This document shows, piece by piece, positions 9,395-10,384 of a stretch of DNA of 38,670 nt. This DNA comes from Pirellulales bacterium. Lineage in GTDB: Bacteria; Planctomycetota; Planctomycetia; Pirellulales; DATAWG01. Below the pieces are notes generated by a model. That model saw only the letters and a list, made by a program, of their open reading frames with translations. It was not told the DNA's origin and ran no database searches. Position numbers and translations under genes: made by a program. Position 1 is the stretch's first letter. Every line of letters begins with the position of its first letter. Location: assembly GCA_035939775.1 (NCBI GenBank), contig DASZFO010000059.1:1-38670 (forward strand), read 5' to 3'.

Positions 9395-10384
9395 CTACGC
9401 GCTTCGAGCCCTATCGAGTTCGTCACTTGTCGGCCGATTGCAATACTCGCGGCTCGATTCGCTCGCCAGTATCTCCAATAATATCCACCGCACTTTTGGT
9501 TCGGACTTGGCCGCCGCCGCGATGACATCGGCGGCGTGGGTTTTGTGCGGGGCGTCGGGCAGGCCGAGGTTGGTGATCGTCGAGAGGGCCAAGATGCGCA
9601 GGCCCAATTGCGCGGCGACCGTCACCTCGGGTACGGTGGACATGCCGACTGCGTCGCCGCCGATGCGCCGCAGGAAACGATATTCGGCCCGTGTCTCGTA
9701 GTTCGGCCCGGTCACGGCAATGTAAACTCCTTGATGGGCCACGAAGTTCGCGCGGCGGGCGATTGCGGCGGCGCGCGCGAGCAGGGACGGATCGTAGGGA
9801 CTTGGGCGCATCGCGGTGATCGGCAGCGCGTCATTGCTGGACAAGCCAGCAGCAGCTTGGGTAGCACTGGCCAGCGAAGTCGGCCAGTGTCGCGCGGGTT
9901 GGGATGCCACTGGCCGACGTTGCTGGCCAGTGGCACACGCCGATTCGAAAGTGCCGAACATTAAGTTGATGTGGTCGGCGATCAAGAGGATGTCGCCGGG
10001 CGAGTATTGCGGATTTAACCCGCCGGCGGAGTTGGTGACGATCAGCAATTCGATCCCGAGCGCGTGAATCACGCGCGTCGGAAACGTGATTTCGGCGAAT
10101 GAGTAGCCTTCGTAGGCATGCAGCCGGCCGTCCATCACGACGACCGGCAAATTCGCGACGTGGCCGCATACGAGCCGCCCTCGATGCCCCAGCGCCGTCG
10201 CCCGTTCAAAGTGTGGAATCGATTCATACGGCAGAATCGTTTCGGCTTGAACTTCGTCGGCGAAGTGCCCTAATCCAGTGCCCAGAATCAGTCCGGCGCG
10301 CGGCATGCCATTCCACCGCCGGCGAATCCACGCCACTGCTTCAAGAATCTTCGCTTCCGATGGTTCGATGGCTTTGCACTGCAT
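9395..10384 (-). CDS. punA: Purine nucleoside phosphorylase (trimeric type) with a repeat-derived loop
   Basis: A 329-residue enzyme that cleaves purine nucleosides with phosphate (purine salvage). Family blocks are GLILGTGLG (31-39), RLHAYEGYS (87-95), VTNSAGGLN (116-124), VTGPNYETRAE (224-234) and GMSTVPEV (247-254). Glu230 and the Asn of STITNLG match the base-binding Glu/Asn of the human enzyme. Between DHINLMF (137-143) and MRPSPYDPSLL (192-202) the family normally carries a 'NPL-x-GPND-x-x-FG-x-RFPDMS' loop. That loop is missing and replaced by about 48 residues translated from two palindromic repeats. In the human enzyme this loop supplies Phe159 to the neighbouring active site, so activity may be altered. 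ATG 10384 is the first start before the domain; the ribosome binding site is weak. Confidence 0.85.
   Translation of the reverse strand: MQCKAIEPSEAKILEAVAWIRRRWNGMPRAGLILGTGLGHFADEVQAETILPYESIPHFERATALGHRGRLVCGHVANLPVVVMDGRLHAYEGYSFAEITFPTRVIHALGIELLIVTNSAGGLNPQYSPGDILLIADHINLMFGTFESACATGQQRRPVASQPARHWPTSLASATQAAAGLSSNDALPITAMRPSPYDPSLLARAAAIARRANFVAHQGVYIAVTGPNYETRAEYRFLRRIGGDAVGMSTVPEVTVAAQLGLRILALSTITNLGLPDAPHKTHAADVIAAAAKSEPKVRWILLEILASESSREYCNRPTSDELDRARSA
9865..9935. repeat. Pair of palindromic repeats inside the phosphorylase gene
   Basis: Two hairpins lie in tandem. At 9865-9889 the arms cactggcc/ggccagtg flank a 9-base loop. At 9905-9935 the arms tgccactggcc/ggccagtggca flank a 9-base loop. 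The loop of one is nearly the reverse complement of the loop of the other (agcgaagtc against agcaacgtc), so the two units are inverted copies. Both are read through in frame by the minus-strand phosphorylase gene. Confidence 0.85.

Follow-up and report, generated by a model that had tools for sequence, protein, structure and literature searches.

The analysis of a second purine nucleoside phosphorylase (PNP) gene in a planctomycete MAG revealed palindromic repeats translated in frame at the place of an otherwise near-invariant loop. We consider it probable that these repeats are a REPIN and a second type of REP, carried as tolerated passengers in an interface/active-site loop that is labile in one clade of the enzyme (clade B), while the catalytic core remains under selection.

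The PNP gene and its catalytic core

The window, that is the whole stretch of 38,670 nucleotides that was analyzed, is contig C59 of a 6.39-Mb draft MAG of 384 contigs (G000), whose best hits among genome contigs were MAGs of Pirellulales and Planctomycetaceae. Positions 9395-10384 of its minus strand (ATG at 10384, stop codon included) encode a trimeric-type PNP of 329 amino acids. This protein scored 290.7 bits against PRK08202 (NCBIfam; cut-off 218) and 163.4 bits against Pfam PF01048; its score for TIGR01700 (PNP I), 255.8, was under the cut-off of 293.35. The PNP of Planctopirus limnophila (4m1e) was both the best solved relative and the best structural match (Foldseek TM 0.89 by target length). 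The genome encodes two PNP paralogues. The window PNP is the second and belongs to clade B; the other, a canonical clade-A enzyme (L046), is located on contig C301, a context that the preliminary description of the gene had overlooked.

The N-terminal core (residues 1-143; 9956-10384, minus strand) keeps His67, Arg87, His89, Tyr91, Glu92 and Asn118, and the C-terminal core (residues 197-329; 9398-9796, minus strand) keeps Tyr229, Glu230, Met248, Ser249 and Asn272. All members of the catalytic set are thus present, at positions which we take to be equivalent to human His64, Arg84, His86, Tyr88, Glu89, Asn115, Glu201, Met219, Ser220 and Asn243. The preliminary description had all motifs outside the loop intact, and this is nearly so: 59 of the 61 positions outside the loop that are conserved in at least 95% of sequences are kept, canonical proteins having between 0 and 6 such changes. 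One of the two altered positions lies in the NAxGG motif of the active site (A119S, with Ser at the Ala116 equivalent); the other is A294S. A119S was found in one of 172 PNPs, the window protein itself; its position in the active site could be read as a sign of relaxed selection and counts against a tolerated insertion. Codon-position GC is typical of a coding gene on either side of the insertion. In the reading proposed here, the enzyme would still phosphorolyse 6-oxopurines, and the contacts between its subunits would be changed.

The canonical PNP loop consists of 23 residues, nine columns of which are 97-100% identical among 114 canonical homologues. The window PNP has 53 residues between DHINLMF and YDPSLL, in which no trace of the motif is recognisable other than possibly a Met. 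It was claimed earlier that palindromic repeats fill the position of this loop, and this is borne out.

Palindromic repeats within the gene

Hairpin search and genome pattern counts located two type-1 REP units in the gene. The unit at 9865-9889 has the structure CACTGGCC-AGCGAAGTC-GGCCAGTG with the outer tag GTAG (the majority of the family has GTGG), and that at 9908-9932 the structure CACTGGCC-GACGTTGCT-GGCCAGTG with the outer tag GTGC. As first described, they are mutually inverted hairpin units read in frame without a stop; their 25-nt arms are 92% complementary and separated by 18 nt. Together they form an inverted doublet at 9861-9942 (minus strand), translated as residues 148-175 (SACATGQQRRPVASQPARHWPTSLASAT), with matches elsewhere in the genome at C195:5684-5771 and C65:9538-9622. 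The predicted RNA fold of the gene strand at 9820-9945 had an energy of -66.8 kcal/mol versus -48.1 +/- 3.7 for shuffled sequences (z -5.0), and the single-strand DNA fold of the same region gave z -5.7 versus shuffled sequences. By both values the doublet is predicted to fold into the single long hairpin that characterizes a REPIN.

The pattern CACTGGCC-N{4,16}-GGCCAGTG occurs 46 times in the 6.39-Mb source genome, always with a directional spacer of 9 nt, and the reversed control does not occur at all, so the type-1 palindrome is not a product of chance. A consensus built from 45 units showed that beyond the palindrome and a GTGG-like outer tag they have hardly anything in common; the tags of 49 units were GTGG in 38, GTGC in seven and GTAG in two. 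All 14 neighbouring pairs are in inverted orientation, at a spacing of 18-238 nt. These data show that the type-1 repeats exist in many copies and are arranged like mobile REPINs. Their distribution is narrow. The only other genome of the same family (G001) contains 88 copies, and the 56 other genomes of the order yielded single chance-like hits in two only; the type-1 repeats are restricted to the source family, with practically no copies in the remainder of the order. Rfam searches returned sub-threshold matches only; most were to microRNA families and simply reflect the hairpin.

Among type-1 units with judgeable flanks, both PNP units sit in coding sequence of the same frame, with a positive coding score on either side. 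The remaining units of this set look intergenic in a simple codon-usage test, with the exception of a cytochrome c and a uvrA case. A multihaem cytochrome c ORF (L056, G000:C372:15463-15487) has an in-frame type-1 REP between haem motifs, encoding TGRLRWPVLP, and is a second intragenic case. The C-terminal end of uvrA (L065, G000:C96:26145-26169) is extended by a read-through type-1 REP; in other phyla, too, intragenic REPs are known to target uvrA (PMC3733652).

Adjoining the doublet, at 9825-9852, is a degenerate type-2 REP (93% identity over 28 nt with a copy on C356), with its core TGCTGGACAAGCCAGCA at 9835-9851 and translated as residues 178-187 (AAGLSSNDAL). The layout of this type is CACT-GCTGGACAAGCCAGC-AGTGGCACCC, inverted pairs are frequent, and GCTGGACAAGCCAGC is found 16 times in the source genome versus zero for the control. 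The repeat-derived DNA is therefore composite and spans 118 bp, 9825-9942. A repeat stretch had been correctly noted before, at 9860-9940, but it is longer than that because of the second REP type; likewise, the replacement of the loop stands, but the repeat-encoded residues (148-175 and 178-187) number 38 of the 53 and not about 48. We also considered an insert of exactly 31 residues followed by a merely diverged 3′ part of the loop, and the type-2 match argues against it. Possible remnants of the ancestral loop are GTFE on the 5′ side (residues 144-147; 9944-9955, minus strand) and PITAMRPSP on the 3′ side (residues 188-196; 9797-9823, minus strand), the latter to be compared with RFPDMSRP in relatives.

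A RAYT flanked by type-1 REPs was found neither among the four Y1_Tnp loci of G000 nor among the nine of G001. Mobilization in trans or a missing contig are possible explanations. Since none of these loci is flanked by the repeat, we claim the layout of a REPIN and not membership of a RAYT-driven system. One RAYT-like Y1 transposase gene (G000:C165:5044-5415; L210, L213) has its own palindrome, GTCAGGCC...GGCCTGAC, on both sides, which represents another REP family. Elsewhere in the window, a minus-strand ORF (1289-1978) contains, at 1859-1905, a long inverted repeat that is nearly perfect (arms AAAAGTAGAATGTCCCCTTTT). Contig C88 has the same palindrome close to a RAYT-like gene (L211), and this repeat is therefore probably a member of another family.

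Loop loss is confined to one clade

All counts, trees and models that follow rest on exact translations. The conserved loop with the Phe159 equivalent is absent from the window PNP and from 41 other proteins, and all 42 of these non-canonical loops, out of 172 PNPs, fall inside one clade of 56 members (clade B; support 0.87) together with 14 canonical ones. None was found among the 116 proteins outside it. In a tree of 134 proteins the non-canonical loops are within a clade of 37 members with support of 0.999. Losses of the motif number no fewer than three in the larger tree and no fewer than four in the smaller. The loops that took its place are unrelated in sequence, 15 to 60 residues long and mostly devoid of palindromes. 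In one clade-B loop (L172:4956-5108) there is a tandem repeat of 15 nt (GGCGAACCGATACTG), a further way for the loop to grow. In clade B, where 42 paralogues lack the motif, the loop is not indispensable, and in the wider PNP family it is thus a common and not a defining feature.

The homologues nearest to the window protein in the tree (L128, L127, L026 and L021) have a canonical loop of 23 residues and no palindromic DNA, as had been expected of its closest relatives. The loop was therefore probably lost on the window protein's own branch. Neither a con-generic genome nor a close orthologue that would show an empty site at the DNA level was found in the genome collections searched.

Clade B differs from the other PNPs at positions that contact the substrate. 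The equivalent of Asn243 (window residue 272) is Asn in 56/56 clade-B proteins versus Asp in 111/116 others, and that of Phe200 is Tyr in 53/56 versus Leu in 106/116; Glu is retained throughout at the position of Glu201 (56/56 in clade B). In mammalian PNP, Glu201 and Asn243 touch the 6-oxopurine base (PMC9916683), and human PNP with Asp at Asn243 together with E201Q accepts adenosine analogues (PMC2799393). This split suggests that the clade-A and clade-B paralogues probably differ in purine specificity. Clade B appears to retain the 6-oxopurine signature even where the loop is gone. At the level of sequence, the clade as a whole is shown to have lost the apparent constraint on the loop and to have kept that on the catalytic residues.

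Predicted consequences for the enzyme

In an AlphaFold2 monomer model of the window PNP the core has pLDDT values mostly above 90, N-terminal part included, and residues 149-178 are below 50. The translated repeat is accordingly modelled as what would be a disordered surface loop. Mammalian PNP subunits touch one another mainly through the loop 141-168, and simulations suggest that the isolated monomer is non-functional (PMC9916683). Loss of the loop could for this reason matter in the window PNP, which speaks against a tolerated insertion. However, the human F159A protein remains a trimer and its activity is not significantly altered (PMC9916683), so an enzyme without the Phe159 equivalent is not necessarily impaired. 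With the loop as main contact and Phe159 dispensable, changed oligomerization is the most likely consequence by analogy, and loss of activity a possible one. The enzyme had been proposed to be impaired, changed in specificity or adapted to its new loop; given the tolerance of F159A and the paralogues without the motif, impairment is only one of three live options, and the dispensability of the loop in clade B had been missed.

Other repeat-encoded loops in clade B

Two more clade-B loops are encoded by palindromic repeats. That of L176, from a MAG deposited under a Kuenenia name, reads GIGVGQVFNLPHEPF. The REP that encodes it is degenerate and belongs to an unrelated family, which gave 70-75 hits in the L176 genome and none in the control, G000 or G001; a canonical PNP (L181) is encoded under the same MAG accession. 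The loop of L232 (genome G305) is encoded by a palindrome of about 100 bp, whose fold z of -6.2 was the best of 172 loops. Several near-full-length copies are present elsewhere in G305, with conserved arms and a variable centre; the purine-rich arms are low in complexity, which makes this case somewhat weaker. Both proteins have all the listed catalytic residues and belong to a sub-clade in which every member lacks the loop motif. The loop palindrome of L135 (10-bp stem) was rejected as a REP, being single-copy in its genome.

A fold z below -2.5 was obtained for 4 of 42 non-canonical versus 0 of 130 canonical loops. Most non-canonical loops are not palindromic, and repeats are thus one source of loop sequence and not the sole one. 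With other, unrelated palindromic repeats in this loop in two distant relatives, one loop of one enzyme appears to receive mobile DNA repeatedly. That unrelated mobile palindromes keep landing in this interface/active-site loop of the second planctomycete PNP while catalysis persists is, in our estimate, slightly less likely than not.

Origin of the loop and alternative explanations

We propose that gene duplication provided a canonical clade-A copy, which would have freed the clade-B loop from selection. REPs landing in a stop-free orientation and frame would then be tolerated in the relaxed loop, and the ancestral loop would have been displaced by repeat insertion and afterwards eroded. The repeat would be a passenger and not a designed part. 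A disordered loop, as predicted, and the lack of any sequence shared among clade-B loops fit such a passenger better than a loop maintained by selection for a new role in specificity, oligomer state or regulation; that three unrelated repeat families occupy the same loop, and that clade-B loops vary in both length and sequence, could be cited for such a role, which we nevertheless regard as quite improbable. An artefact, in which the assembler of the MAG joined two fragments over a repeated palindrome, is more improbable still. The draft state of the genome and the difficulty of assembling palindromes would allow for it, but the two halves of the protein are in one frame and match one gene family, and clade-B members are among the nearest neighbours of each (L028 for the N-terminal half; the second PNP of L038, and L028, for the C-terminal half). 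Neither half is matched better by any other gene of the genome than by the clade-A paralogue, and analogous cases exist in two independent assemblies (L176 and L232). Separate trees of the halves gave no sign of two sources, though the halves resolve neighbours poorly.

A more serious competitor, though in our opinion unlikely, is that the paralogue is inactive or has recently become a pseudogene: trimer formation and activity would have been lost with the insertion, the clade-A copy would do the work, and the frame would not yet have decayed. Neither a stop nor a frameshift is seen in the window PNP, codon-position GC is of the coding type around the insertion, the core is conserved like that of canonical enzymes (2/61 changed), and the Asn and Glu residues are kept throughout clade B in spite of its free loops. 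All this argues against a pseudogene, and against it must be set the clade-A copy in the same genome, the uniqueness of A119S and the importance of the loop as an interface element. Also, many genomes of the order show just one PNP, G001 having only the clade-A type among the matches listed.

The reading as a tolerated passenger has a wider bearing. Repeats inserted in genes are usually assumed to survive only where the protein is indifferent to them, whereas here the loop is near-invariant in 130 homologues and the catalytic residues are kept. Three unrelated repeat families in one loop offer a direct test both of whether mobile palindromes feed the evolution of enzyme loops and of whether catalysis depends on the Phe159 loop at all. 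If the loop does receive such repeats recurrently and the enzyme stays active, this would be a natural experiment in which selfish DNA has repeatedly supplied raw sequence to one enzyme loop, in some lineages possibly with a new function.

Comparison with known systems

REPINs, or REP doublets, are high-copy short palindromes arranged as inverted pairs with a spacer and predicted to form a long hairpin (PMC3116915, PLoS Genet 2011). The repeats of the window share with them the inverted high-copy palindrome pairs and the hairpin; those described are extragenic, whereas the copy in the window is translated and no cognate RAYT was found flanked by it. Intragenic REPs with GTAG/CGTC tags are known as in-frame, head-to-head dimers encoding 20-30 residues (43-82 in clusters), and most GTAG-20 elements of Opitutus terrae have the tag GTGG (PMC3733652, BMC Genomics 2013). 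Two Xanthomonas recB genes carry different REPs at roughly corresponding positions, and many of the intragenic REPs reported are in genes of DNA synthesis and repair, where they were suggested to lie within neutral linkers or loops (PMC3733652). In contrast to these genes, the enzyme described here is metabolic, and its repeats lie in an active-site/interface loop that is otherwise near-invariant and whose lability could be mapped on the family tree. Rickettsia palindromic elements (RPE; Ogata et al. 2000, 2002, as cited in PMC6649704) are likewise selfish palindromes in frame in protein genes, of another sequence family and in another phylum; they recur in many Rickettsia genes, whereas in PNP one loop has received different repeats in different species. 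With the trimeric PNPs themselves (4m1e, human and calf) the window protein shares the fold and the catalytic residues, but 53 other residues are found instead of their NPLxG...RFPDM loop. In-frame REP dimers in genes and the Rickettsia elements were thus already known. What is new is the site in a near-invariant interface loop, its lability in one paralogue clade only, and the presence of three unrelated repeats there.
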